DNA from: Telopea speciosissima
Taxonomy: Eukaryota > Streptophyta > Magnoliopsida > Proteales > Proteaceae
Reading direction: 5' to 3'
Length of the DNA: 64,000 nt
Assembly (NCBI RefSeq): GCF_018873765.1
Contig: NC_057924.1
Coordinates: 4,836,001-4,900,000, forward strand
The translations under genes and the position numbers were made by a program. This document shows, piece after piece, positions 9,701 through 63,443 of the stretch (position 1 is its first letter; each line of letters begins with the position of its first letter). Under the pieces are notes generated by a model. It saw only the letters and a list, made by a program, of their open reading frames with translations. It was not told the DNA's origin and searched no databases.

Positions 9701-12700
9701 AAAACCTTTTAAAAATCATATAACCGTTTAATAAACCATTCAATTTTGATTTCATTATATGAAATCATTTAATAAACGGTTTGATTTTCGTTTCAACACC
9801 TTCGCATTGTGAATCGAATCTACTGTACCATTTAACCAGAACCCATCCACCGTTTAAATATCCACTTAGTTTCACCCACCAAAAAAAAAAGGGTTTAAAC
9901 ACTCCTAGGGTTGTCAATCGGTTGGTTCGGGCTGGTTTTGATTTGGGTTAAGTCAGTTTTGGTGTGGGAATGGTAAATTCAAAACCAAACCAATAAATAA
10001 AGTTTAGTTTCAGCTTGGTTTGATTTCAAGTTGTATCGGTTTGTTATTGTGGTCGGCTTCGGTTTCGGCCCAGTTTGGATTCGATTTAACATCAGTATAC
10101 AAAAAAAACTTTGAAAAATCTTAATTTTTTTTAATGGGTTTCGGGTTGTTATCGATTTTTTTATCGGGGTAGATCGGTTCTGTTTCGGTTCGAGTTTTTT
10201 AGCTGATTTTGGTTTTATTTCAAGTTCTTTCGATTTCCAATGTGATTCAGTTTCGATTTTGATTTTGGTTTTGGGATCACAATACCTCAATCCGAAAACT
10301 GTCCAATAAGACATCGGTGCAATGCGGTCCAAGCCATTTCGGTTCAGTTTGGTGTCACTTTTGACACCCCTAGACCCTAAAGACCCCTTTAACGGCGTGC
10401 TGCCCAGTCCTGCCTGTGCTGCCCAAACACAGGGCCACGCACAATGATTGCCTTACCCCCGCTCGAACAAGGCGCTCGGACAGGGGTAAGGCGATCAATG
10501 CATGCCCCCTTGTATCTATGCAGCACGGCGAGACGGGCAGCCCACACCGTAGAAGATCTGGATCCCCGTATCACATGCTTAAAGTAGCAGTCATTTAGGT
10601 AAAAAACATGGGCGGGTAGACTTTATTATCGGGCAGCGCAATGTCAATGATGAAAAGGCCGTGGCTTTGTGGCAATACATAGGGTAGGTACACTGGTAGG
10701 TACACTTTAAGCATTTGTGACCATACAATGAGTAGGTGGACCTGCAAAAAGATTCTCTCCAACCATCCAACAAGGTTCCAATCACTTGTTGAATTATAAG
10801 TTCGAGTCCAGACATTCTTCAATGACACTTAACCACCAGAGACTATCTCACACCATCCATGGGATATAGGGGCGGGACTACCTCTAGGGTACATGGTTCT
10901 AAGTATTGGTTCGTAGGGCCATATGTATCGGTTTTTTATGTATTGTTTTTTATCCGGCTCCTCTCCAGGGAACTCAGCACCCTGGGAGTGCCCAGGGGGC
11001 ATCCTAGGGTTGGATTGTGTTGCTCACATCTCAAGCATGCCTAGGGATGTGTGCGGCACAGCCCAACGGCTGGATGCTCCCTGGGCATGCTGGGCTCCCT
11101 GGAGGAGAGCTCAATCCATCTATCTCTCTCTTCACCATATGAAAAGACATCTCTGCCCCCTTGTTTTGAGGATGAGAGAGATAGACACATGGGAGTGCTT
11201 GCATAGGCCACACTCCCTAACAGAAAACTACTTCCCTTATTATTATATGGGAAAAAGAACGATGTCTGGTCTTGTAGCCCCTAAGCCCAAACACATGAGT
11301 GCATGAATCTATCACTACAGCCTCCGTGAAATGAAATATCCCATACATGTATATGTCCCTGTGCGCACTTGCAAAGGCTACACGACCAGCCAAAAATCTC
11401 TTTCCCTTATATAGAAATAAAAAATGGGAGAGAGAGAGAGAGAGAGAACGTTGCTTGGTCGCGTTACCCCTACGCCAGCATGGGACAAATGGGATCGCGT
11501 ATTAGGCAACCCACATGGGGGCGGGGTAGTCATTTTGCCACCGCCCTATGTATGGGTGTAGGGATTTGCGACCAAGCAGCGTTCTTTTTTCCTAAAAAAA
11601 TTACCTTTGGTAGGAAACTAGTGTTGGTGAGGATGGAGTAAGCTGGTAGTAGACTGTAGCACAATTCAGGCAAAGAACATAGAGCCCAACTCAACGAGAA
11701 GAGATAGCTCAAGCATTGCCGGAAGTGAAGCTTTGCAATGAGGGAGCCGAGGATAGGACTGTTGTTGCTCAATAGAATCTCTAGGAGACCAGTGGACCAT
11801 CTCTTCATTTGGGTCAATGTTACGGGCCCAGTTGGGGGTGCGCACCCAAGAAATGCAGATGGGTTCGAGTCAAAATAAATGGACTTCCAGCCCTTTGTAT
11901 GAATCTTGAGTCCTGTGAGGATGTCTTCTGTTGTGGAGCCATAGAACCACCCCACCTGTTTACCCCACTGTGTGTTGTACTCGTAGTCACAAGCTGCAAC
12001 TGAGATAGCTGCCTTGACAGATATCGAAAGATCTTTCGGATTGTCCGGATTTTCATTCATAACAAATAATACCCGACCCGCTGATTCCATAAATTCAAGA
12101 CATTTTCCAAATTTCGCTTGAAGTGCTTCATAAGGTGATTTTCCTAGCAAAAGAAGAAAGGATTAACTTAAGGAGAGAGTTTTCATACATGATCGTGCAT
12201 GGTGCACGGTTATGCTTTAATTTCATTCATTGGATGGACATGATTGTGTACAATACACGGTTCGGACTTGATCGTGTACAATACACGGTTCCTCATCCCC
12301 ATCCAACGGTTGCAAGCACTATCGTGACATGACACTCTGATTGAACTCTGAGTTCATTATTTATCTCCCACCTCTTATTGTTCATGGTTTGAAATACCCT
12401 TCTCTGGCCAAATAAAAGGGCATGGGATGGATGAAGAGATTCTCTCTTCACCATGGGTGGAGAGAAACTAGGTCCAAGAAGAAAAATGCCAAAACTCGAG
12501 AGATTTAAACATTTTACCTCAATATGAAGAACTACGTACCATTTATGAAACTTATATATCTTGCTTTAGTTTCTGCTTCATCTGGTGATAGCCCATATAT
12601 AACTTCCCTTCTATGAAAGCATCCTGTTCCACTATAAAAGGGCCCTTGTATTCCTGCTATTCCGCGGCCCAAATTCTGAGAAAAAAACGTAATAAAAGTG

Positions 12701-14693
12701 AAGGCAATTTTAGAAAATAAATTAAGAGAAGATGGCATTTAAAGGCTGACTCAATCGGACTCCTCTACTTTCGCCTGCCCCTACTGTCCTGTGCGCCCCT
12801 CACACAAGTAAGGCGGAATGTACCGCCTTACCCCTGTCCAAGCACCCTGCCCGAGTGGGGATAAGGCGGCACTTTCCACCATGCTTATGTATGGGGGCGC
12901 ACGGCAGTACCGGGCAGGCAGAAGTAGAGGAGTTGGACTTGGGTGTTTTCTATGTGTTTAACTCACATGTTGTAGTACAACCAATTGGTTTCCAAATGGG
13001 TCATCCTTCGGGGCTCCGTAGAACTGTTGTGGGTGCTGAACAAATCCACTTTCGCTTTCTTTCTTGAAACCAAGTAGGAAACACATTGCCATGAGAATGA
13101 TCTTTGGGTTGTTTGCGAACATATCACAGTCAACGTTGAGCATGAAAGGGGAGTTTGTCATCACTCCTGAGACTCTAGTCTGAGCATTTCAAAGTTTTCA
13201 AAGTTAATATTCTAAGTAATGTAAGTGTATTTAGATTTTGATATACTTTTCAATTGTTCTTTATCTTATTCTCAAAAGTTCTTTTAAGTCAAGTTAAAAT
13301 ATAGTTTTCAAAAATAATTTGAAAATGAGTTATTTTTCAAGTATACTTATCATACGATTGAATTTACCCTAGTTTAAAAAAAAAAAAGGTACGTGAGCGT
13401 ATGAAAACGGCTCACAGCCATCAAAATGGAATCCACCCCGTGTGCGTACGTGAGTGTGAGCCCAACTCAATAGGGATGGTAAAGATGTACTGCTACTAGG
13501 ATATCATTTTCGATACCAGATACTGAAGCCTTCTTAGTTCTTACCAAGACATTCATGGCCCCTGCTTTGTAATGATGCGGGTGCTTGGGCCGCTTCTCTC
13601 TGGACACATATACCAGGTGTGGCACCACATCCGAAAGATTTCCATTGTTTTCCCATATGACCTGCAAATTAAATGTTATAAATAACAAATTAATGAATCC
13701 TATTTGGCTTCGGTTAGTACTAAGCAAGGAATATTGGGTTACCTTAACTATACTCGGATGGTTTCTGCCTTCTATATTTGAGAAAGCTTCAAATTCACCA
13801 CTCAGTTCACATGGAACGGATTTCTGAGTAGCTTCTTCAATTCTTTGGCAAAGCTCTTCATATTCATTCTGTAAACTCAAAGATAGAGATGAGAGATATA
13901 TGGGAAGATATAATGGAAATTAGAAAGATCTGGAGCTATATACTACCTTAATCTTCTTCCATTCCCTTTGGAAATCTGAGGATGAGAGATGGGAAGTTGG
14001 CTTGGTGGGCTCAGTATAAAAATACATGAAGGGGGCTCTAACTTGAACTTCATATTTTTTGCAGAAAGGCACCCAAAGCTTTGCAAACTTAGATGCTTCC
14101 AGAAGAGAATAAAAGGTCAGAGGAGAAGCTCCATCATCAGAGACATAACAAGCTAGCTTGTGAGCTGGGTAGTCTACAGCCAACAAGGAGAGCACAGTGT
14201 TGACAGTGATAATTGGTGGTTCAAGATCTGGATCTGCTGTTGTCACAAACATGTCCACTGGGGGTAGCTCATCACCAACCCTTCAATTTGACATAACTTT
14301 AGTATATACACAAAGAGTGGTTTTAGGTACTATTTTTATCATCGGAGAATGCAAAGTAGACCTAGAATGCATACCAAACACTGCCAAAAGAAAAAGAAGA
14401 AGAAGAAGAAGGAAGAGAGATCTCTATATATACCATTGTAAGAGGCGTTCAGGGTAAGTGATGAAATCAACAGGAGACCATTTAGCATTCATGGTGAGGA
14501 TCCAGCAGAAGATGAACCATGACTCACAGAGGAATGCAAGCTTCCAAGCTACGCCATGAACGTTGAATGATAGTAGACGATACAAGAGGAGGAGAAGAAG
14601 GAGAAAGAAGATGATGAGGTCTAGGACTCTCTGAAGGGTGTTTCTACCAGGGATTCTCTCTTGGAGGGGAATAGAAGAGATGGGATTCCACAT
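6701..14693 (-). CDS. CSLH: CslH-like glycan synthase, copy 2 (intact, 8 exons)
   Basis: Membrane GT2 glycan synthase. Known CslH proteins make mixed-linkage (1,3;1,4)-beta-glucan in grasses; the product here is unknown. Exons (minus): 14693-14434, 14280-13947, 13868-13743, 13661-13545, 13179-12967, 12675-12540, 12143-11605, 7273-6701. All have GT-AG borders and compatible phases, giving 2298 nt or 765 residues. Exon 1 has two TM segments. The catalytic motifs are YVSDDG (about 135), NVDCDMF (about 297), STTEDI (about 468) and QMKRW (507-511). Exon 8 supplies the C-terminal TM block, with [11 protein letters not shown] and [11 protein letters not shown]. Residue 2 is Trp (MWNPIS) where the other copies have Ala. 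Intron 7 is 4.3 kb and full of MITEs. No lesion was found, so it is probably functional. CslB is the alternative family name. Confidence 0.88.
7405..7545. mobile_element. Small hairpin MITE in copy 2 intron 7
   Basis: 'aaagtgcatcagacggtgca' near 7407 and 'ctgcactaggtagtgcacag' near 7498 flank paired 'ggatttttatctt' and 'gaggatgaaaatcc'. The unit B copy is near 20185-20330. Confidence 0.5.
7947..8445. mobile_element. GC-rich MITE, 'aggggtgcaagtttggccc' family
   Basis: Ends with inverted termini 'aggggtgcaa' and 'ttgcagcccta'. The interior is made of 'ggccctgagggcgggt' and 'cggcccaacccgaccc' repeats, which give strong foldback. The unit B copy is at 20737-21215, with many small indels. Other members are 54776-55070 and a fragment at 35625-35790. 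Intronic in copy 2. Confidence 0.65.
8455..8618. mobile_element. Fragment of 'gggatgtaaacggat' MITE
   Basis: 'gaatatccggattcgatcac' and the terminal 'ccgtttacatccctag' match the right end of 62392-62663. A left-end-like fragment lies at 7690-7840. The unit B copies are near 20480-20610 and 21240-21395. Confidence 0.55.
8993..9165. mobile_element. Hairpin MITE, 'gggctcctctcctgtgagtc' family
   Basis: Left 'cgggctcctctcctgtgagt' pairs with right 'gggctcacaggagagcagcc'. The central part holds repeated 'caacgcc' and 'cactgggc' motifs. The unit B copy is at 21767-21922. The element at 10958-11110 is related. Confidence 0.65.
9395..9800. repeat. AT-rich stretch with near-perfect inverted repeat
   Basis: Around 9613-9697, 'aaaaaatttactgttataag' is followed about 25 bases later by its complement 'tataacagtaaattttttag', making a stem of about 30 bp with a short loop. 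The flanks repeat 'ccatttaataaaccattcaa'. The unit B copy is at 22380-22464. It is intronic in copy 2 and looks like an AT-rich MITE. Confidence 0.6.
9905..10375. mobile_element. MITE with 'tgtcaatcggttggtt' / 'tttgacacccct' ends
   Basis: Left end 'agggttgtcaatcggttgg', right end 'tcacttttgacacccct'. The interior is rich in 'tttcggttt' and 'cagtttggatt'. The termini are like those of 44961-45604. The unit B copy is at 22680-23149. Confidence 0.6.
10391..10565. mobile_element. Hairpin MITE family 1 (core 'gtaaggcg'), in copy 2 intron 7
   Basis: Foldback of about 175 bases: 'acggcgtgctgcccagtc' on the left, 'gggcagcccacaccgtag' on the right. The core carries paired 'cgctcgaacaaggcgctcg' and 'ggggtaaggcgatcaatg'. 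The unit B copy is at 23163-23337. Confidence 0.75.
10958..11240. mobile_element. Composite of two hairpin MITEs
   Basis: 10958-11110 pairs 'ggctcctctccagggaac' with 'gctccctggaggagagc'. It is followed directly by half of the 'cactcccatgtgtc' family ('atatgaaaagacatctctgc', then 'gataggccacactcc'-like sequence to about 11230). The unit B copy is at about 23729-24010. Confidence 0.55.
11255..11597. mobile_element. Two hairpin MITEs of the 'ttggtcgcg' family beside exon 7 donor
   Basis: 11255-11400 pairs 'gtctggtcttgtagcccc' with 'ggctacacgaccagcc'. 11446-11597 pairs 'acgttgcttggtcgcg' with 'gcgaccaagcagcgttc'. The second ends about 8 bases inside intron 7 from the exon 7 splice donor of CslH copy 2. 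A (ga)n tract at 11427-11447 separates them. The unit B copies are at 24027-24180 and 24230-24374, with a longer (ga)n. Confidence 0.7.
12757..12933. mobile_element. Hairpin MITE family 1 in copy 2 intron 5
   Basis: 'ggactcctctactttcgcct' on the left pairs with 'aggcagaagtagaggagt' on the right. The inner stem is 'gtaaggcggaatgtaccgcc'. It lies about 33 bases downstream of exon 5 in the sense of the gene. The unit B copy is at 25527-25703. Close relatives 48728-48907 and 61359-61536 sit upstream of copies 4 and 5. Confidence 0.8.
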
Positions 14694-24374: not shown

Positions 24375-25526
24375 CTAAAAAATTACCTTCGGTAGGAAAC
24401 TAGTGTTGGTGAGGATGGAGTAAGCTGGTAGTAGACTGTAGCACAATTCAGGCAAAGAACGTAGAGCCCAACTCAACAGGAAGAGATAGCTCAAGCATTG
24501 CCAAGTGAAGCTTTGCAATGAAGGAGCCGAGGATAGGACTGTTGTTGCTCAATAGAATCTCTAGGAGACCAGTGGACCATCTCTTCATTTGGGTCAATGT
24601 TACAGCCCAGTTGGGGGTGCGCACCCAAGAAATGCAGATGGGTTCGAGTCAAAATAAATGGACTTCCAGCCCTTTGTATGAATCCTGAGTCCAGTGAGGA
24701 TGTCTTCTGTTGTGGAGCCATAGAACCACCCCACCTGTTTACCCCACTGTGTGTTGTACTCGTAGTCACAAGTCGCAACTAAGATAGCTGCCTTGACAGA
24801 TATCGAAAGATCTTTCGGATTGTCCGGATTTTCATTCATAACAAATAATACCCGACCATGATTCCATAAATTCAAGACATTTTCCAAATTTCGCTGAAGT
24901 GTTTCATAAGGTGATTTTCCTAGCAAAAGAAGAAAGGATTAACTTAAGGAGAGAGTTTTCATACATGATCGTGCATGGTGCCGGTTATGCTTTAATTTCA
25001 TTCATTGGATGGACATGATTGTGTACAATACACGGTTCGGACATGATCGTGTACAATACATGGTTCCTCATCCCCATCCAACGGTTGCAAGCACTATCGT
25101 GACATGACACTCGATTGAACTCGAGTTCATTATTTATCTCCCACCTCTTATTGTTCATGGTTTGAAATACCCTTCTCTGGCCAAATAAAAGGGCATGGGA
25201 TGGATGAAGAGATTCTCTCTTCACCATGGGTGGAGAGAAACTAGGTCCAAGAAGAAAAATGCCAAAACTCGAGAGATTTAAACATTTTACCTCAATATGA
25301 AGAACTACGTACCATTTATGAAACTTATATATCTTGCTTTAGTTTCTGCTTCATCTGGTGATAGCCCATATATAACTTCCCTTCTATGAAAGCATCCTGT
25401 TCCACTATAAAAGGGCCCTTGTATTCCTGCTATTCCGCGCCCAAATTCGAGAAAAAACGTAATAAAAGTGAAGGCAATTTTAGAAAATAAATTAAGAGAA
25501 GATGGCATTTAAAGGCTGACTCAATC

Positions 25527-38233: not shown

Positions 38234-38816
38234 TAAGTCCGAGCCTACCAAAAATTACAAGGCCTTCGTTGGGATTTTCAGGCTGGGGTGGGTCAAGTTG
38301 AGCCGGGCCCCTCATGTGTGCCTAAGATAAGGGTCATGGATTAAGTATCTTATATTTAATAGGACAAAATTTTCTTCCACCTCTAGAACATTCACCACAC
38401 CCTCCTAGGGTTTGTATAAAATTTTAGTATTTTCTAAAAACACCCTTCTGATGCCCTCTCCAATCCATCCCACATCCGTGGCTAATGGATTCCCATTCGC
38501 CGTGGCTAGAGGGAAACTCAATCTTATTTAATATAGTCATTGATTGAATATATTAAATATATAAAATTATAAACATGTAAATTTGATTATTCTATTACTA
38601 ATACATTGAATTAAGAATATTCAGCAAAAATAATTTAAGAGCAATTTTAGATTTGGAGATTAGCTGCATTAGTGCATATTCTTCTAGGCGATGGCTCGTA
38701 CACATGTCTAGTAATCTAATTTTCATATTAAACAAAAGCAGAGGCAGCGGTTGGGGGATTATTTTTGTTCCCCACATTCCATTTTTATAGTAACCAACAA
38801 TAGGGCGGTGTGAAAA
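38234..38816. other. Intergenic between PL copies, no gene
   Basis: 38234-38300 resembles 43275-43340 (3' flank of PL-B). 38600-38820 has partial similarity to the PL-A 5' flank ('tttttatagtaacc'). Nothing coding. Confidence 0.4.
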
Positions 38817-39038
38817 GAAAGTCAAATTATAATGAATTAAGGTACAAATAAGTGTATAAACTATTTTGTATTCTTGTATGCTTCATTTGAGAAAGTCAAA
38901 TTATAATGAATTAAGGTACAAATAAGTGTATAAACTATTTTATATTCTTGTATGCTTCTTTTGAGAAAGTCAAATTGTAATGAATTAAGGTACAAATAAG
39001 TGTATAAACTATTTTGTATTCTTGTATGCTTCATTTGA
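38817..39038. repeat. Minisatellite, three 74-bp units
   Basis: Units at 38817-38890, 38891-38964 and 38965-39038, each starting gaaagtcaaatt and ending cttttga or catttga, with two or three mismatches. An A-run follows at 39042-39060. Confidence 0.95.
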
Positions 39039-44024: not shown

Positions 44025-44195
44025 CAGTTTTCTGTCTTGGAGTATGGTCGACGCTAACACTCCCATGTATCTTAATCTCTCTCCTCCTCAAAACAAGGGG
44101 GCAAAGGTGTCTTTTCAAAAGGGAAGAAGAGAGATAGACTCATGGGACTACTGGTGTAGGCCATGCACACTCTTAGATTGAGTTCTTTTTCCCAT
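44025..44195. mobile_element. Hairpin MITE abutting CslH copy 4 exon 7 donor
   Basis: 'gtcttggagtatggtcgac' and 'aacactcccatg', against 'catgggactactgg' and 'gtaggccatgcacactctt'. Its end lies about 12 bases past the exon 7 splice donor at 44207. Family of 15950-16092. Confidence 0.65.
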
Positions 44196-44950
44196 AAAAA
44201 TATTACCGTAGGTAGGAAACTGGTGTTGGTGAAGATGGAGTAGGCTGGCAATAGACTGTAGCACAATTCAGGTAGAGAACGTAGAGCCCAAATCAATATG
44301 TAAAGATAGCCCAAGCATTGCCGGAATTGAAGCTTTCCGGTGAGGGTGCCAATGATGGGACTATTGTTGCTCCATAGAATCTCTAGTAGACCAGTGGACC
44401 ATCTCTTCATTTGGGTCAATGTCATGGGCCCAGTCACAGGTGCACACCAGAGAAATGCAGATGGGTCCGAGTCAAAATAGATGGTCTTCCAACCCTTTGT
44501 ATGAATCCTGAGTCCGGTGAGAACGTCTTCTGTTGTGGAACCGTAGACCCACCCCACCTGTTTACCCCACTGTGTGTTGTACTCGTATTCACAAGAAGCT
44601 CTGAGATAGCTGCCTTGATAGAGCTCGAAAGATCTTTCGGATGGCCCGGGTTTTCATCCATAACAAACAATACCCGACTCGTAGATTCCATAAATTCAAT
44701 GGAATTTCCAAATTCTGCTCGAAGTGCTTCGTAAGATGATTTTCCTAGCAAAAAGAAGAAAAGATTAAGTTAAATCTCTTTATCAATGGTGATGTGATAC
44801 TATGATTGGATTCTTGATTCATCGTTAATTCCCAACCTTATTGTTCATGGTCTGAAATACCCTTCTCCGGGGTCCATATCAGACGGTAGGTGTGGAGAGT
44901 AACTAGGTCCAAGAAGAAAAATGCCAATACTCCGAGAAAATAAACATCTT

Positions 44951-45614
44951 ACCTCAAGATAGGGGTGTCAATTTTGGACCGGAACCTATAACCAGACCGA
45001 AACCGTCCCGCTAGGAATCGGAAATGACCCACCCAATAGCTTATTGATCCGGATCTGGTCTTAGTGATAGGTTATTGGTTCGGCCGGATTTGGTTGGGTC
45101 CCCGGAACCGTTGGAACCAGAAGAAATGCATACACTTGAACTTGTCTTGCACAATTTTTTTTGTTTTAAAATGTTAAAAGATGATCTTTGCTATTTTAAC
45201 GTATAGTTAAAGTGACTTTTATTATATAGTTGTTGTCCAGTTACTATTAGAACAAGACCCAAGACTAAGCAAGACACTTGGCCCCTCAAATTCTAGTATT
45301 CTACCCCTCTCATATTGTTGCACATAGAGGACACACACCAGTAGTTAATGAATTGCTTTTGAAAGATTCTAGCTTGCTTGAGATTTCTAGTTCCAATGGG
45401 AAAAATGCTTTACATTTGGCTACTCAACAAGGGCATGTTTGGGCCCGATTAAAAACCGAAACCGGACCACCCATTAGTTAATGGTCCTGGATCTCAAATT
45501 TGGAACCGGTGAGCTTATTGGTCCAGATCTGGTCTTGACACCTTAGAGCCGAAACCCCTAGAGAACTGGACCGATAGCCCAGAATTGGACCAATTGACAC
45601 CCCTACCTCAAGAT
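44951..45614 (+). mobile_element. MULE-like element carrying an ankyrin-repeat gene fragment (10-bp TSD)
   Basis: Perfect direct repeats acctcaagat at 44951-44960 and 45605-45614 flank a 644-bp element with inverted ends aggggtgtcaatt and aattgacacccct. At 45311-45439 (plus) the interior encodes an ankyrin-repeat segment: RGHTPVVNELLLKD, then SNGKNALHLATQQGHV, the wording of plant ITN1/ACD6-type ankyrin proteins. No stop occurs within it, but there is no complete gene. Outside this segment the interior resembles the 'accggaacc' non-coding family. It sits in intron 6 of CslH copy 4. Confidence 0.85.
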
Positions 45615-46675
45615 TACATAATTTTCATGCAATGTTACCAATGTAATAATATCAACACGTTATGTTGACATACTATGATTGAACATATGAGATTCAGAAA
45701 AACAAAGAAGAACTACCATTAATTAAACTCATATATCTTGCTTTAGTTTCTGCCTCATCCGGTGATAGTCCATATATAACTTTCCTTCTATGAAAGCATC
45801 CTGATCCACCACATAAATACCCTTGTATTCCTGCTAATCCACGGCCCACAATCTAAGCAGAAAACGTAATGAAGTTGAAGACAATGTTAGAAAAGAAATC
45901 AAGAGAATAAAATGGCAATAATAGGTAAAATGACTCGTTGTAGTAGAACCAAGAATTGGTTTCCCAACTAGTCATCCTTTGAGATTCCATAGAATTTTTG
46001 TGGGTACAAAACAAATCCGCTTTCGCTTTCTTTCTCGAAACCAAGTACGTGACACATTGCCATGAGAACAATCTTTGGGTTGTTTGCGAACATATCACAA
46101 TCGACGTTGAACATGAAAGGGGAGTTTGTCATCACTCCTGAGACTCTGGTCTGATCATTTCAATATCGTAAGTAATATTAGGTAATTTGATTGTCTGAAT
46201 GACACATTATAAGAGTATTTAGAACATGTAATCTTCTTTTATCTGTCCTATACGGGTAAAAAAAGGTTTTTAAAAATTATTTAAAAGTGATTTACTATTA
46301 TGTCATTTTCAAGAATTCCCATTGTCTCTCACATTTTTCGAATACATATGTAAAATGATAGATTTTACTATCAATTAAAAGAAAAAATGTATTCAACTTA
46401 GAGATAAAAAATTTAGGTTACAAATTAATTGACACTTTGGAGTGTCAATACGTAAAGGGAAAATCTTGCTGTAACCAATAAGATTGTAACCTTACTTTAT
46501 TTCACCCTTTGTTTTATTTTCAAAAAGTTATTTAATGTATATTTAATGCATGGGTAAAATGGTTTTTCAAAATATTGAAAGTCATTTAATGCATATCTAA
46601 TGTAGTGACATATGAAATTACAAGATTACCCTTTTATATATTAAATAACTTTTCAAAATAAAATAGGGATTCGAC

Positions 46676-47814: not shown

Positions 47815-48727
47815 GAGCAATACAAGATACAAATAATGGAAAGAAATTAAGATCTGGAGCTGTATACTACCTTAATCTTCTTCCATTCCCTTTGGAAGTC
47901 GGACGATGAGAAATGGGAATTTGTTTTGGTGGGCTCAGTAGAAAAATACATGAAGGGGGCTCTAGCTTGAACTTCATATCTTTTGCAGAAAGGAACCCAA
48001 AGCTTTGCAAACTTAGCTGCTTCCACAAGAGAATAAAAGGTAAGAGGAGAAGCTCCATCATCAGATACATAGCAAGCTAGCTTGTGAGCTGGGTAGTCTA
48101 CAGCCAACAAGGAGAGCACAGTGTTGACAGTGATAATTGGTGGTTCAAGAACTGCATCTGTTGTTGTCACAAACATGTCCACTGGGGGTAGCTCATCACC
48201 GGCCCTATATAGAAAGAGTGGTTTTAGGTATTAAAAAAAGGAGGAGAAGAAGAAAGAAAGAAAGAAAGATCTGTTATCAATACCATTGTAAGAGGCGTTC
48301 AGGGTAAGTGGTGTAATCAACAGGAGTCCATCTAGCATTCATGGTGAGGATCCAGCAGAAGGTGAACCATGACTCGCAGAAGAATGCAAGCTTCCAAGCT
48401 ACGCCATGAACGTTGAATGATAATAGAAGATAGAAGAGGAAGAGAAGGAGGAGAAAGAAGATGATGAGGTCTAGGACTCTCTGTAGGGTGTTTCTACCAG
48501 GGATTCTCTCTTGGAGGGGAATAGAAGAGATTGGATTCGCCATGGAAAATGGAGATTGAGAATTGGGACACACAGGGTCACTTAGCAGTTAAAATCGTCC
48601 TATATATAATGGGCAAAATCCAGCTGTGAAGCTAAGTTTTCCTGCCATGCCAGTGATGCCACATGCAGCCATCATCATCATGCCTTCTCTTGTGAGAGCG
48701 GCTAGTGGCATAAGAGATCTAGCATTT

Positions 48728-48907: not shown

Positions 48908-49472
48908 ATCCAGGGAACTAATGAGCCTTTTTAAATTCTTCCAAATTTGCTTCGATGAGATAAACCGTAATCAAAACAAAATAGACCGACTCAATTGGAC
49001 CAAACCAAAACCAAAATAAAAAACAAAACAAAACCCTATTTTCCAAAAGCAAGAGATTCACGATGGGGAGTCTGGGTCTGCACATTTCGACTTCTTCCTC
49101 TCACACATTTCAAGAGCCATGGTAGAAAACAATAGAAAATAAAAGGAACCAACGATTGAAACAAAAACCATAAGGCAATTAATATAAATAGACCAACTGA
49201 TGAACTTCTAAAAATTTCAAAGAATGAATAACCAAACAACCCTTCGAGAAAAGAAGAACAGGAAAATAATATTGAGTTATGATTTAAAGTGAGTGAAATA
49301 TTCAATTACGGCACGGAATTGAGTAGAGAATACAGTTCACTTTGAAGAAAAGGTTGGATAAGATCGATGGAAATTAGGGTTTTGGTCTCAACTAACATTC
49401 AAGTACTGGTCATAAATGGTGGCGAATAGACTCAAGTCCACTGGGACCAACGTTCTGATCCAACATTCAATG

Positions 49473-49837
49473 TATGGGTGTCAAATCCTTTACGAACCGG
49501 TCAAATTGAGTGACTGTGATCGAAAAAAACCTAAATTGATTCGAACTAATTATTGTTGGATCAGTTTGATTTGGGGTATTATGTCGACAGAAATCCGCAT
49601 CGAGCATAGAAAATCGGATTGAAATCGATATGAAATGATATAAACCAATAAGAAACAGATACCAACCTAACCCAAGTGGGCTCCCTATGAAATGACCAAA
49701 CTCCCCCCTCCCCCTTCCCCACCCAACCCAACCCAACCCAACCCAACCCAAAAACACTTATTATTGATTTGGTTTGGAATTCACCCATTTTCACCTAAAT
49801 TAAATGAGACCAAACTGACTGATTGACATCCTTAGGT
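49473..49837. mobile_element. Degenerate 'gggtgtcaa' element with (cccaa)n tract
   Basis: 'atgggtgtcaaatcctttac' on the left and 'ctgattgacatcctta' on the right form weak inverted ends like 44961-45604. 49716-49752 is a (cccaa)n microsatellite. The counterpart is at 62098-62790. Confidence 0.45.
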
Positions 49838-50290
49838 TTTTTTTTGGGTAATATTGGCGCCTTTAATTCAATGATTTCGATGTTTAGATTTCAAATTCAT
49901 CCATTCTCAGCTAAAATCACCAAGTGACAATTTGTTCGTCCATTGTACTTGCCCACCTTATCTGCTTGCCGACTCACTTCCTTGGTCTTTTTGAATTGTC
50001 ATTCGTTAGAAAAAGAAAAAAAAAAATCATTTTTAAGTAAATTTACAAATTTTCCATGTTAATTACTTTCTCCTCTTCCTATCCTAAAGAATTTATGATC
50101 TCAGGAAGAGATATATACCATAATTTCTTTTCAAGTTTTACACTACAAAAGAGTTGCAGAAAAACTAACGGCCCATGGAGGAAGGTCACCCAAGAATTTG
50201 ACTCAAAACTTTGCTACAGCAATTTGAATGGGAATTAAAATTTGTGGACATGTAGAACCCAAGATCCCCTCTCACATGCATTATTGGCAC

Positions 50291-53936: not shown

Positions 53937-56900
53937 TCACAACATTTGACCTTTGGAACCCATACGCATTGAGAAGTAAATGAAGAGTAATGCCAATGTG
54001 GCGGACTTGTACAAGATTGATGAGGGGATCCCATAAATTCCACTTCGGAAAAGCCCTTTTAGAAATGGCAAGAAGCTCAGCACTACCCATGTACTGCAAA
54101 TGACCTCTCCAATACCCGGCTCGGTCCGGCCATCACGGACCATTTGAAATGGTTGAACCCTTAAGCCGGTCATTGCAAGTGCAGTTAGGTGAACCAATAA
54201 GAGGGTTGTGGCCGGTACAAAGATAGGCGACTCGTCGAAAGTAAACCGGCCGTTATCGGAGTCTATAACACCACTACCTTCGCTTGATTTATTTTGGTCT
54301 TTCCGTGTTACTACGAAGACAGTCTCTGATATCCCTAACAACTTGAGAATGACAGCCAATAGCCCAAACAACCATGCAGTAGACGATTGTATCCTTGCCA
54401 TTTTCTGGTTGTTCCACCATGCCTGGACCGGTAAACCACATCGGAGGTACTCTAATAAGGTGCTAAGGTTGTAAACCACGAAAAGAGAACCAACAACGAA
54501 GAAAGCCGGTTCGGAGACCTGCATATCAAGTTACCAAGATTTAAAAAACCATCTTAGCATGTAATTAGCCAAATACAAATTTTTTTTGAATTTTTTTCCT
54601 TTTCTTTTCTTGCCATCCAAACATAGACTTAAGGAGAGGGCTCTCTAAGCAAGCGGCATACAAAGCACACCAAGTTCATGTGGGGGGAAAGAAGTCATTT
54701 TTTTTGTTTAAGGAAAAAGGTCATTCCTTTGTGGTCAGCTCATAAAACCTTTTCCCCACAACTTATGTAAGATAGGAGTGTAAGTTTAGCCTTGTCGGCC
54801 CGAGCCCGAACCCAAAGAAAAGTCTAATAGTCAATTGAGTATGAAACAAACCACTACCCAATCTCATGAGACTGGTCAATCAAGGCCAACCAGGTGGCAA
54901 AAATCAGGGTCAATTAGGGCCAAGCTGAGCCGACAAGGTGGGGCCTGGGCTGAGATATCTCAGCCTGACCTAAGGCCGGGTTGGGCTTGGGTTAAGCTAA
55001 GAGGATTCAAGGTTGGGCTAGGGTTTTAAAAAACCCGGCCCAATCTGATCTTATTTCACCCCTAATATAAGAGTACGACTGGTGCATTAATTAATACTGA
55101 TGTATGGGTACGGTTTATGCATGACAATACATGAGGTTTGATAGACTTTGATAGATACCGGGGACACAATTTGGCTCTCCTCCAGCTGTGGCGAGAGCTG
55201 GAGGATCCAGCCCAACAAGACAAGGGGTGTTTGAGTCATTTCGCCGGGGACAGACCCATGTCAGTTGATAAAAAAGCCGTGAATATCTGACAATACATTG
55301 GGTTGGTAGACTTTATGCATTTAATACAACACATGGGCACTTTGGGTAGAATTTATGCATTTAGATTTCTATGTGCGAAATCTTTTTTTTTTTTTTTTGG
55401 GGTAAATGTACGAAACTTAATTTTACCTCCCAGATGCAATTCCCAGTACCAGTACCAGTGGGTGAAAGAAAACTTAGTCCTTGTTTGGACTAATGTCTGG
55501 ACTAAGGGATGGCATGCCGCTTGCTTACGTGCATGAGGGTCAGGGGCTGGACCAGGAGAGGGGGGGGGTGCATACCACTCTGTTTTGAAGATCTTGACTT
55601 TCTGGTCTAAGATAATTATTCAAAACCTTGCAATCAAATGCTTGTTAATAATTAGGGAAAAAGATTAATGTCAGATTGTGTGGAATCTACGCCCAAATAG
55701 AGGACATGCGAAATTACCATCCCATTCTCATGAAATAAAAGATCTCTTCCATGTTGATGCTTATGCACTTGCTCTTATTGGCCCCCACGCTGGTGCAGGC
55801 CATGCAACTCAGTAGCGATCTTATGCCCTAATAATTATAAGGGAGAGGGTTCATCCCTACGGTGTCAATATGGGGAGAATCTATAGGCAACATCAATGTG
55901 AATTAGTTATTTGTGGCCGTACAATTCATAGTTATTGCACTCCTGCTTATTTTTTCCTATTTAATATAAGGGGCGTTGTTCTCGGTGCCGTAGCGCAACC
56001 TGCGCCTAGGCACATGGGGGTGGACACAATGACCATCTTGCCCCCTACACAAGCTACCCATGTGCATGGGCATAGGCTGCGCTACGGCACAGAGAACATT
56101 CTCCCTTAATATAAAGAAGTAAAAAGATTACCGTAGGAAAGAAATTGGTGTTGGTGAAGATGGAGTAGGCTAGTAGTAGATTGTAGCACAATTCAGGTAG
56201 AGAACGCAGAGCCCAAATCAATATATTGAGATAGCCTAAGCATTGCCGGAACTGAAGCTTCCCAGTGAGGGTGCCGATGATTGGACTGTTGTTGCTCCAT
56301 AGAATCTCAAGTAGACCAGTGGACCATCTTTTCATTTGGGTTAATGTCGTGGGCCCAGTCACGGGTGCACACCCAAGAAATGCAGATGGGTCTGAGTCAA
56401 AGTAGACCGAGTTCCATCCCTTTGTATGAATCCTCAATCCAGTGAGGACGTCTTCGGTTGTGGAGCCGTAGACCCACCCGACCTGTTTACCCCACTGTGT
56501 ATCGGATTCATAGTCACAAGCTGTGACTGAGATAGCTGCTTTGACAGAGCTCAAAAGATCTCTCGGACTATCCGGGATTTCATTCCGCACAAACAATACC
56601 CGATTCGCTGATTCCATAAATTCAGGAGAATTTCCAAATTTCACTTGAAGTGCTTCATAAGGTGATTTTCCTGGCAAAAGAAGAAAAGATATATTAAGTT
56701 GAATATCTTCACCAATGGCGATGTGACACTATCATTTAACTTTGGGTTCATTGTTAACTCTCACCCCCAATTGTTTATGATTAAAACATCTTTCCTCAGC
56801 GAGGTTCAAAATTCAGGTATCGGACTCGGGATCGGTCATGGTCGAAACCTTTTCGGATCGGGATTGGATCGGTCAAAAAACCCCCCAAAATCGTTTTTTT

Positions 56901-59900
56901 TACGGATCAGGTCATGTATCGGCCAAAGTTGGTGGGTGTTGTGATCTCAGGAACGGATCGGTCAAAATCGATTGGTATCGGTCGGTATCGATCAAGGTAA
57001 TATCAAAAACCAAAAAAAAAAAAAACTTAAAGCTTTTGAAAAAATAAAAAAAAATATTCAGTTGGATCGGTCAAGGATCGGATCGGCCGATCCAACCGAG
57101 TTGGGCGATCCAGTCAAACCTTGTTGTATCGGTGAAATCTCAGGAATGGCCTTGACCGATATCGATCTGATCCGGCCAATATTGACCGATCCGATCTGAT
57201 ACCTCAAACCATGTTCCCCAGTCCAATATCACAGGGTATGAGACATTTTACCTCAATATTGCATAATTTCATGCAATATAATAGTATCAACACATTGACA
57301 AACTTTTCTTTCTTAAGTTTAATATGGGGAGAATGTTCGGCGCAAGTTGCGACCAGACACATGGGGGTGGGCGCAATGACCACCCTGCCCCCCTGAGTGG
57401 CAGGCCCATGTGTCTGTGCTCAGCTTACGCTGCGGCACAGAGAACATGAGTCCTATTTGTCTCTCCCATAAAAGAGAAAAAGAAAAGAAAAAAAAAAAAC
57501 ATATGGGATTCAGCAAAATAAAGAAGAAGAACTACCATTAATTGAACTCATATATCTTGCTTTAGTTTCTGTCTCATCCGGTGATAGCCCATATATAACT
57601 TTCCTTCTATTAAAGCATCCTGATCCACCACATACAGACCCTTGTATTCCTGAGAATCCACGGCCCACAATCTGAGCACAAAATATAATGAGGGTGAAGG
57701 CAACGTTAGAAAAGAAATTAAGAGAAGATGGCAATAATGGGTGAAATGACTTGGCTGTTTCGGGTGTTTTCTTTGCTGACTCACTTCTTGTAGCATAACC
57801 ACTTGATTTCCGAATGGGTCATCTTTTGGGGCTCCATAGAACTTTTGGGGGCACAGAACAAATGCGCTTTTGCTTTCTTTCTCGAAACCAAGTAGGAGAC
57901 ACATTGCCATGAGAACAATCTTTGAGTTGTTTGCAAACATATCACAATCGACATTGAGCAAGAAAGGGGAGTTTGTCATCACTCCTGAGACTCTAGTCTG
58001 ATCATTTCAAAGTCAATATTGTAAGTAATATTAAGAAAATTCTTATTTTAATCAAAATAGTGAATTAAGAAGTTTGTAATCTTATTTTTTTGCCCTTTTA
58101 AGATAATATACTTCTAGGGTAAGAGATTGGTGTCTAGTCGTGTAGCGCCTGCACTAGTGCCAAGACCAGTAGGAATGTTGCAGGAGCATTTGACTGAAGT
58201 GGATTATTTAGTTCACTCGGGCTGAACGATAATATGATCCTATGTTTGAGCGTATGAATCACGCGACTGGTTAGCGTTCTTTTTCCCATACAGTTTTTTT
58301 TTCTTTCAACGAGGGCAAATCTTGTCATTTGTATAAATATTGCAATAAATAACTTTCAAATTTTAATTGAAAATCCCTTTTAACTCATACATTAAATATT
58401 GTATTAAATAATTTTTGAGAATAAGACAAGGATAAATTAAAAGAAGGTTTTTTTCGGTAAGAAATCAAAAGAAGGTTACAACCTCTTAATTCACTTCATT
58501 GCTGACAACAAGTTATACCTATTAAGCAATGAGATTGTGTGAATGACACATTATAGGCATATATAGTCGGAAAACCAGGTTTTGACTCAGCCGAGTCACC
58601 CTAGTCGAGTCAAAATTTTGGAAAACATGTTCAAAAGTCACGTAGACTTGATTAGGGTAAAAACTGGCAAGAATCAGTCACAACCCATCCCAGTCATATG
58701 AGATTCGATTTTTGCTCGAATCACACCATAATGGGAGAGTCTATTCATTTTTTAAAACTCATTAAATTAACCCACTTGAGTTGGGATTTGGGTCCTCTAT
58801 AGTGCGACAGGGAGTGTAGTGCACCATCCGACGGCCTGTAGTGCTTGGGACATAGCCCAACACACAGGGGGTGTTGGGCTGCGTGTCCAAGCACAACAGG
58901 CCGTTGGATGTGCGCTACATTCTCTGTCGCGAGGAGCCCAACGCCTTGAGTTGAGTAAAATATTAAACAACCTCAAAACCCTAAATTCAAGAGTTCCAAT
59001 ACTTGCACTTTGCTTTGCTGAGAAAAAACCGAATCCCTCTAGGGCTGTTTATTTGGCGGGAAAAAATGGGTGAGATAGTAAGAGGCCGGTGTGGGACCCA
59101 TGTGTAAAGGATAGGAAAAGTGGTTTTGGTGGTCCCACATATATAAAATAACCAATTCTCTCCATTCCTTATAAAATCCTTCCTAAAAGGGTGGGATTTT
59201 TGGAGAGGGATGGGATGAGAAAATTTAAATCAATTTGGATCCTTTACTGCCGAGCTGCCCGGCACGACCCTACTGTCAAGACATAGTAAGACGATAAATG
59301 ACCGTCTTACACCCATTTGGGCAAGGCACTCGGACCGGGGTAAGGTGGTAATTTACTGTTTTACTGTGTCTTGGCAGTAGAGTGGCAGCTCGGCAGTAGA
59401 GGATCAGGGTCCAATTTAAATAGACAATTCCTATTTTTTTGGTAAAAATAAACAATTCCTTAAATAATGGAAAATTGTCTCCCCATTTCTCCCACTTAAC
59501 AACCAAACAAACATGGGTTTTTTGTGTTTTATGGAAAACTTGTTTTTTTTTCCACCATGTTTAAACACTGGGTTTTTAACAAATGCCCCCTAAAAATGCT
59601 CATTTATTCAAATGCCCCCTTAATTTCAAAACATTGTAACACTGTGGTCCAGTCCGTTTATTTGGGACATTAGACATTAGACATTAGTTTTAAGGAATCT
59701 AATGACCAAAATGCCCTTCTAATAAAAACCCACCAAAATTAAAGAATAAAATGACCAAATTGCCCTCATCTTCCCCAAATGATTTGGGGTTTGAAACTGA
59801 AAATCAAACCTTAAACCATTTGGGGAAGATGAACCCTAAAATCAAACCTCCAAAATTTGATTGGTTGGCATCCCAAGGGTTTCTAAACTCGCCAAACCTT

Positions 59901-61536: not shown

Positions 61537-62381
61537 AGAGATCTAATGGGCTATTTTAAATTTTTTCAAATTTGCTTCGATGAGATAAACGGTAATCAAA
61601 ACAAAACAGATCGACTCAATTGGACCAAACCAAAACCAAAAACAAAACAAAACCTTATTTTCAAAAGCAAGAGATTCACGATGGAGAATCTGGAGAATCT
61701 GGGTCCGCACATTCCGTCTTCTTCCTTTCACACATTTCAAGAGCCATGGTAGAAAACAATAGAAGATAAAAGGAATTTCCAAGAATTGAAGCAAAACCCA
61801 TGAGGCAATTAATATTGACCAACTATGAACTTCTAAAAATTTCAAAGAATGAATAACCAAAAAACTCTTCGAGAAAAGAACAACAAGAAAATAATATCTA
61901 GTTATGATTTAAAGTGACTGAAATATTCAATTACGGCACGGATCTGAGTAGAGAATACAGTTCATTTTGAAGAAAAGGTTGGATAAGATCGATGGAAATT
62001 ATAGTTTTGGTCTCAACCAACATTCAAGTACTGGTCATAAATGGTGGCCAGTAGACTCAAGTACACTGGGACCAACGTGCTGATCCAACATTCAATGTAT
62101 GGGTGTCAAATCCTTTACGAGCCGGTCAAATTGAGCGAATCTGATGAAAAAAACTTAAATTGATTCGAACCCATTATTGTTGGATAGGTTTGATTTGGGG
62201 TATTATGGAACCTGCTGAAAACCAGACTCAAATCTGACAGAAATCCGCATCGAGCATAGAAAATCGGATCGAAACCGATATGAAATGATATTAAACCAAC
62301 AAGAAACAGATACCAACCTGACCCAAATGGGCCTCCTATGAAATAACCAAACCCCCCCCCCCACCCCCTGTTTTTGGGTGT

Positions 62382-62669
62382 CTAGACTGGACTAGGGATG
62401 TAAATGAATAGCCGAAATCCGTTTCCGAATTCGTGTCCGTATCCGTTTAGCACTATCCGAATCCGTCCGAAAGCTAAACGGATACGGATACGGATAGGCT
62501 ATAGCTATCCGAAAAGTTATATTTACATGTAAACGGATAAAATATCCGATCCAGATCCGTGTCCGTATCCGCTTAGCACTATCCGAATCCGTCCGAAAGC
62601 TAATCGGATACGGATGCGGATATAGCACTATCCGAGCCGAATCCGATCCGTTTACATCCCTAGACTGGA
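62382..62669. mobile_element. MITE 'ctagggatgtaaa' with 6-10 bp TSD
   Basis: ctagggatgtaaatg (62392) pairs with cgtttacatccctag (to 62663). Outside it, ctagactgga occurs at 62382-62391 and 62660-62669, so the duplication is 6 to 10 bp depending on where the ends are drawn. The interior has two head-to-tail blocks of 'tatccgaatccgtccgaaag'. Confidence 0.75.
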
Positions 62670-63443
62670 CCCTCCAGCTCCTGCCAATCTGAAACTGACA
62701 GCAACCCAAAAACACTTAGTATTGATTTGGTTTCGAATTCACCCATTCTCACCTAAACTGAGACCAAACGGATTGATTGACACCCTTAGTTTTTTTTGGA
62801 TAATATTGGCGCCCTTAATTCAATGACTTAGATGTTTTGGTTTCAAAGTCATCCATTCTCAGCCAACGTCGAATCAGACCAAATTGACCGATTGACACCC
62901 TTAGTTTTTTTTTGGGTAATATTGTCGCCCTTAATTCAATGACTTGGATGTTTTCCCTTTTTTTAAGCCTGTCAAGTTCATCTCAATTCTAGAAACAAAG
63001 CCTTCAGATTCTAGTTTGTTTTCCTTTCACTTTCCCTGCCGAATTTAGATGCTAGTACAAGCAATCATGCATTTTCCATGAGACAATTTGTTCGTCTATT
63101 ATATTTGCCCACCTTATCTGCTTGCCGACTCACTTCCATGGTCTTTTTGAATTGTCATTCGTTAGAAAAAAAAAAAATCAATTTTAAGTAAATTTACAAA
63201 ATTTCCATGTTAATTACTTTCTCCTCTTCCTATCCTAAAGAATTTATGATCTCAGGAAGAGATATATACCATAATTTCTTTTCAAATAGAAACATTTGAT
63301 TTTTATACTACAAAAGAGTTGCAGAAAAACTAAACGGCCCATTGAGGAAGGTCACCTGAAAATTTGACTCAAAACATTGCTATAGCAATTTGAATGGAAA
63401 TTAAAATTTGTGGACATGTAGAACCCAAGATCCCCTCTCACAC

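Follow-up and report, generated by a model that had tools for sequence, protein, structure and literature searches.

The window, a 64,000 bp stretch of Telopea speciosissima DNA, contains at positions 44960–45605 of its plus strand a non-autonomous element of 646 bp whose first base is T44960 and whose ends read TAGGGGTGTCAA and TTGACACCCCTA. It is bracketed by two copies of the octamer CCTCAAGA (44952–44959 and 45606–45613; no strand is assigned to either), its left and right target duplications. The original prediction had placed here an element of 644 bp with a perfect 10 bp duplication. The inverted ends AGGGGTGTCAATT are found where they had been announced, with a perfect direct repeat on both flanks, and in the window copy taken by itself this repeat extends over 10 bp and even 11 bp. 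The 10 bp reading is nevertheless too long because the duplication measures 8 bp among 36 genomic copies (see below); the window copy carries this 8 bp duplication extended by a chance A and a chance T, and the true size of the element is 646 bp. A brute-force scan of the window for perfect 12 bp inverted ends 200–2000 bp apart with perfect 8 bp flanking repeats returned just two elements, this one and 62393–62662, and the same scan returned none from 100 Markov-1 sequences. The second is a hAT-like element (TAGGGATGTAAAT...CATCCCTA, perfect 8 bp duplication GACTGGAC) nested within a repeat at 62091–62909.

The interior of the element includes a 304 bp piece of an ITN1-type gene located on C2 (45136–45439, plus strand). 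It comprises ~94 bp of intron (45136–45229) up to the 3′ splice site, which reads TATAG here and TACAG in the donor, and 210 bp of exon (45230–45439) coding for two ankyrin repeats in a broken frame. The frame 45269–45481 matches ankyrin models (Pfam Ank PF00023, 24.7 bits for a cut-off of 21.1). An 8 bp insert (ATTCTAGT/AGTATTCT, placed at 45290–45302 with an ambiguous boundary), absent from the donor and from the related locus L094 described below, shifts the ankyrin frame. Of the earlier claim of about 43 codons of an ITN1-type ankyrin the protein family thus stands, while the extent and coding state do not. The segment around the insert has a length of 20 in 36, 23 in two and 19 in one of 39 aligned genomic copies, and the uninserted length of 12 occurs in 0 of these 39. 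At 45435–45439 (plus strand) the motif ATGTT, a microhomology where two alignments of the family majority sequence to L094 overlap, marks an internal-deletion junction. The right arm carries an internal TIR-like motif TTGACACCTTA (45535–45545, minus strand), a close version of which, TTGACATCTTA, is present in the cargo-free loci L102, L103 and L106. The left arm recurs as the right arm in direct and not inverted orientation (74% identity along 120 alignment columns, E 8e-16).

The element is found within a cellulose-synthase-family gene of the minus strand, one of several arrayed in tandem along the window. The stretches 44075–44653 (125.8 bits) and 47850–48230 match PF03552; a nearer stretch, 45856–46128, has no Pfam match itself and aligns with the paralogous stretch 57551–58006, which matches PF03552. 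With exon-like stretches on either side, the insertion site would be intronic, in agreement with the predicted location in an intron of a cell-wall gene. The ankyrin sense strand of the window copy is opposite to host gene transcription. Compared with its counterparts in three paralogous copies, the neighbouring exon region of the host gene (44182–44773, minus strand) has a 1 bp deletion, and the gene is therefore possibly a pseudogene here.

Two tandem paralogs have the equivalent intron without the insertion (12457–12730 and 25230–25500, plus strand), and the target, TTACCTCAATAT, occurs once in each. In both of them the left flank runs to the target (12457–12525 and 25230–25298) and is followed directly by the downstream sequence (12526–12730 and 25299–25500). 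About 91 bp adjoining the target are also absent from both insertion-free paralogs; this looks like a separate deletion since a fourth paralog retains at least part of them. The fourth paralog is unreadable at the target itself, and its intron (56770–57250) has at about this place a repeat of another kind, rich in GGTATCGG. A 97.1% copy of the entire site, element included, lies at C9:4821547, so the insertion probably predates the segmental duplication that produced that copy. Other repeats of the window include a ~13 kb tandem duplication within the cellulose-synthase-like gene array (5601–31341, 95.6–97.3% identity), both copies of which carry an element listed at 9905–10375, and a 74 bp tandem repeat in three copies (38816–39038, 96%). 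A further repeat (49466–49840 and 62091–62909), for which no clear target duplication was found, was probably inserted before the duplication of two tandem segments because both of them have it.

Family size and superfamily assignment

A search of 823 Mb of genome with the element as query gave 817 first-look candidates, and all 40 that were scored were near full length (86–100% identity). Alignment of 39 copies, which include the window copy and omit the duplicate L009, yielded a majority sequence of ~654 bp in which the ankyrin frame is broken; the copies are 91–96% identical to the majority sequence and 85–92% to one another (median 89%). An ankyrin segment of 218–225 bp is present in 39 of the 39, which are the best-scoring copies and so say nothing about the content of weaker candidates. 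Merging the element and ankyrin searches, genes excluded, places the ankyrin piece at 105 or more separate loci, many of them seen as this piece only. The amplified form counts at least about 100 copies and, if judged by the number of candidates, probably several hundred. The cargo thus belongs to a high-copy family and is no peculiarity of the window copy. The expectation of a very common non-coding repeat family with other copies is borne out by these numbers. Presence of the ankyrin segment in all family members had been named as an outcome that would speak against capture; it is found in every close copy aligned, and capture is still shown by the donor, the cargo-free sisters and the intermediate presented below. 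The family is small, non-coding and of high copy number as MITEs are, its ~654 bp being somewhat above their usual length of <500 bp (PMC10741241).

Same-orientation family copies that abut or are less than ~1.3 kb apart were noted at C6:33858963-33859742 and C3:5450719-5452778. In six loci (L085, L087, L088, L092, L093 and L095) almost the entire 68-aa query can be aligned to an ankyrin frame devoid of stops, perhaps by way of compensating indels.

The TIRs of hAT elements have the consensus start YARNG, while Pack-MULEs and other Mutator-like elements have longer TIRs and target duplications of 9–11 bp. The duplication was studied in 40 copies (39 further copies fetched and the window copy; anchor TAGGGG...CCCCTA). 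Both ends are present in 37 of them, or 36 when the segmental duplicate L009 is left out. An 8 bp duplication with at most one mismatch flanks 25 of the 36 copies (11 perfect; anchor TAGGG...CCCTA). The other 11 differ by more than one mismatch, partly because their ends have decayed or the 12 bp anchor was misplaced. Position by position, each of the eight bases matches in 22–30 of the 36 copies and those directly outside in 11, which is background. When read as 10 bp (anchor AGGG...CCCT), the duplication is perfect in two copies and within one mismatch in ten. The TIR is ~12 bp long, with T as first base in 30 and A as last base in 33 of the 36 copies.

Published descriptions give hAT elements 8 bp duplications and TIRs of 5–27 bp (PMC10741241), and every annotated hAT of rice and maize has an 8-nt duplication (PMC8903248). 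For MULEs the TIRs are long as a rule, though not universally, and the duplications measure 7–12 bp (PMC10741241). The Pack-MULE label of the original prediction, meaning a Mutator-like non-autonomous element that captured a gene fragment and makes a 10 bp duplication, could appeal to this wide range and to the perfect 10 bp, even 11 bp, repeat of the window copy alone. It is very unlikely in view of the 36 copies: perfect repeats and those within one mismatch number 2 and 10 at a length of 10 bp but 11 and 25 at 8 bp, the bases just outside the octamer agree no more often than background, and TIRs of only ~12 bp contrast with the usually long ones of MULEs. Short TIRs that start with TAGGG, fitting YARNG, together with the 8 bp duplications, make hAT (Ac/Ds type) the most likely superfamily. 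This evidence is strong and not absolute, as 8 bp taken alone is compatible with the MULE range of 7–12 bp (PMC10741241). The case illustrates how one copy in isolation can mislead on the superfamily, two chance bases having made 8 bp look like 10.

Donor gene, cargo-free sisters and proposed order of events

A PGG-domain search of the genome gave 135 matches. Among the 34 PGG loci examined, the closest ITN1-like exons are at C2:6901097 and C1:12620947. The PGG exon on C2 (C2:6901097-6901417) scores above cut-off and matches an ITN1 PGG stretch at 87%. Upstream of it, ~1.5 kb apart and on the same strand, lies an ankyrin exon (C2:6902934-6903134); both exons are open, and they would be spliced into one ITN1-type gene with the PGG exon last. 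Majority positions 184–488 match this region over 305 bp (88.9%, E 3e-113), and the match spans the intron-exon junction, the ~94 bp that precede the 3′ splice site being intron and the remainder exon. The C1 paralog (L083) matches in the exon part only (84.5%), which leaves the C2 locus (L082) as the donor. The first 30 PGG loci and four other genes with PGG were rejected as donors since the best amino-acid identity in the stretches examined was 33%; the donor exon and the C1 paralog exon are found just upstream of two of those first 30 loci.

The match across the intron-exon junction argues that genomic DNA was captured, from the C2 gene or from a lost near-identical copy of it. A host gene fragment with an identifiable donor inside a TIR element places the family among Pack-TYPE elements. 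The original prediction that a common non-coding element had transduplicated a fragment of an ITN1-type ankyrin gene is supported by the donor match and by the insertion-free site in two paralogous introns, and the proposed search for a donor ankyrin gene led to the ankyrin/PGG gene on C2. Leaving out the 8 bp insert, the exon part differs from the donor at 11 of 203 positions, affecting two codons synonymously and eight non-synonymously, which looks like drift of an unconstrained passenger sequence.

The capturing family had also been predicted to exist without cargo, at 9905–10375 and 49473–49837. Apart from the end motif, BLAST (E up to 0.1) detects nothing in common between those two segments and the element, and no target duplication was found for either; cargo-free sisters do exist, but elsewhere in the genome. 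A query in which one arm follows directly on the other, with the cargo left out, gave no contiguous arms-only form in the 40 loci scored out of 977 candidates. Among ten loci obtained from the arms query, three are cargo-free. Both arms are present in L103; L102 has the right one and a portion of the left, and in L106 the right arm stands alone. The interior that these arms enclose or adjoin is a different one, ~400–440 bp long and without ankyrin. The target duplication of L103 is conserved at 7 of 8 positions (CATCGGGG/CATCGAGG). The sister interior gave 120 candidates, 40 of which were scored, ankyrin absence being read in L102 and L103 only. As the full-length matches other than L103 are 79–88% identical to L103, the cargo-free sisters look older and seem to number more than three. 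Six of the 40 scored interior places (C8:55612812, C1:28500149, C10:39887078, C14:135792, C8:7996007 and C1:26250790) were also returned by the arms query.

The locus L094 (C2:8404478) is a mosaic of left arm, donor match, tail of the sister interior and right arm. Its donor match extends over 437 alignment columns (87.4%), is longer than in the amplified form and is devoid of the 8 bp insert; its target duplication has decayed (5 of 8). Aligned to L094, the majority sequence gives two matches that have exactly five bases, ATGTT, in common. The amplified form thus reads as an L094-type element minus the stretch between two ATGTT motifs, and L094, the sole intermediate known, as a capture intermediate.

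These observations point to the following history, which as a whole we hold to be very probable: a hAT-type element underwent stepwise capture, deletion, amplification and intronic insertion. In a cargo-free element X, 430 bp or more of the ITN1-type ankyrin gene, intron and exon, would have taken the place of part of the interior, possibly by template-switch or gap-repair copying. An internal deletion at the 5 bp ATGTT repeat would then have eliminated the distal portion of the captured exon together with what was left of the X interior. An 8 bp insert would have broken the ankyrin frame, and the shortened form (~654 bp) would have been amplified across the genome, presumably with a hAT transposase supplied by another locus. 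The window copy would result from insertion into the intron of the cellulose-synthase-like gene with duplication of 8 bp, the fragment now being presumably non-coding passenger DNA. The direction from X to capture is the one we infer; in principle, the order could be the reverse, with the X interior having replaced the cargo.

Acquisition through neighbouring element insertions is the model of Gisby and Catoni 2022 (PMC8903248). Applied here, two neighbouring same-orientation elements would have fused and enclosed the ankyrin DNA that had separated them. The direct-repeat arms, the internal TIR-like motif of the right arm and the existence of abutting family pieces (e.g., C6:33858963-33859263) agree with such an origin, which we initially favoured on account of the arms. 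It was dropped, and now appears unlikely, since the cargo-free L103, and L102 in part, have their arms arranged in this way too although they enclose another interior, and since L094 keeps part of the X interior beside the ankyrin piece, for which replacement within an existing element is the better explanation. The arms suggest an earlier fusion of two elements which, being shared by the cargo-free sisters, is not tied to the ankyrin capture.

Known systems and possible function of the fragment

In the maize Ac/Ds system (hAT) the TIR starts with YAGGGATG and the duplication is of 8 bp; the window element resembles it in both respects and has no transposase. The Pack-MULEs of rice and maize are likewise non-autonomous TIR elements that transduplicate gene fragments; their longer TIRs and 9–11 bp duplications are absent here. 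Pack-hAT elements and amplified captured fragments are already in print (PMC8903248). The Pack-TYPE hAT elements of maize and rice are likewise non-autonomous, with short TIRs, 8-nt duplications and a host gene fragment inside, and hAT and PIF form the largest Pack-TYPE clusters (more than one hundred elements in maize). Unlike them, the present family is from the Proteaceae, and its donor, cargo-free sisters, intermediate and deletion junction are readable together; the explanation of capture also differs, neighbouring insertions in that report and a proposed interior replacement in our case. Zm-Pack-PIF cluster 18, with 52 cargo-free elements and 72 that all have one 163 bp gene fragment (PMC8903248), is similar in that the captured fragment was amplified along with the element. 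It differs by its superfamily (PIF) and because capture there adds sequence, whereas here the interior would have been replaced and later shortened. Literature searches gave nothing relevant for the end motif in the titles and opening lines of abstracts among the papers listed, no match for the ankyrin motif, and no work treating ankyrin, miniature inverted-repeat, hAT and gene fragment jointly. What is new is a member of the Pack-hAT kind with an unusually full history. Capture of host genes by transposons is mostly inferred from end products; because sisters, donor border, intermediate, deletion junction and amplified form are all present in one genome, the sequence of steps and the model of capture become directly testable.

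Nothing in the sequences suggests a protein product from the captured fragment. Its identity to the donor would in principle suffice for small RNAs, and maize elements with captured sequences are described as siRNA reservoirs acting on donor genes in a 2026 review (PMC13317346). We therefore considered whether the fragment is in use, with family transcripts or small RNAs regulating the donor ITN1 gene. Exact matches in at least one of the 39 copies exist for 79 of the 183 donor-exon 21-mers, compared to 7 of 186 for the C1 paralog, and the antisense orientation of the ankyrin piece in the host gene would also suit such a role. Set against this, the window copy alone matches 36 of the 183, the majority sequence has lost the intact frame and, of ten codons that differ from the donor, eight are changed non-synonymously, resembling drift; regulation of the donor is improbable on balance. 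A more specific and similarly doubtful proposal is that the family forms a dispersed small-RNA reservoir that would selectively damp the C2 copy of ITN1 and not that of C1, insertions lying antisense in cellulose-synthase-like pre-mRNA coupling both genes. For the captured intron part, 2 of 73 21-mers match in any copy.
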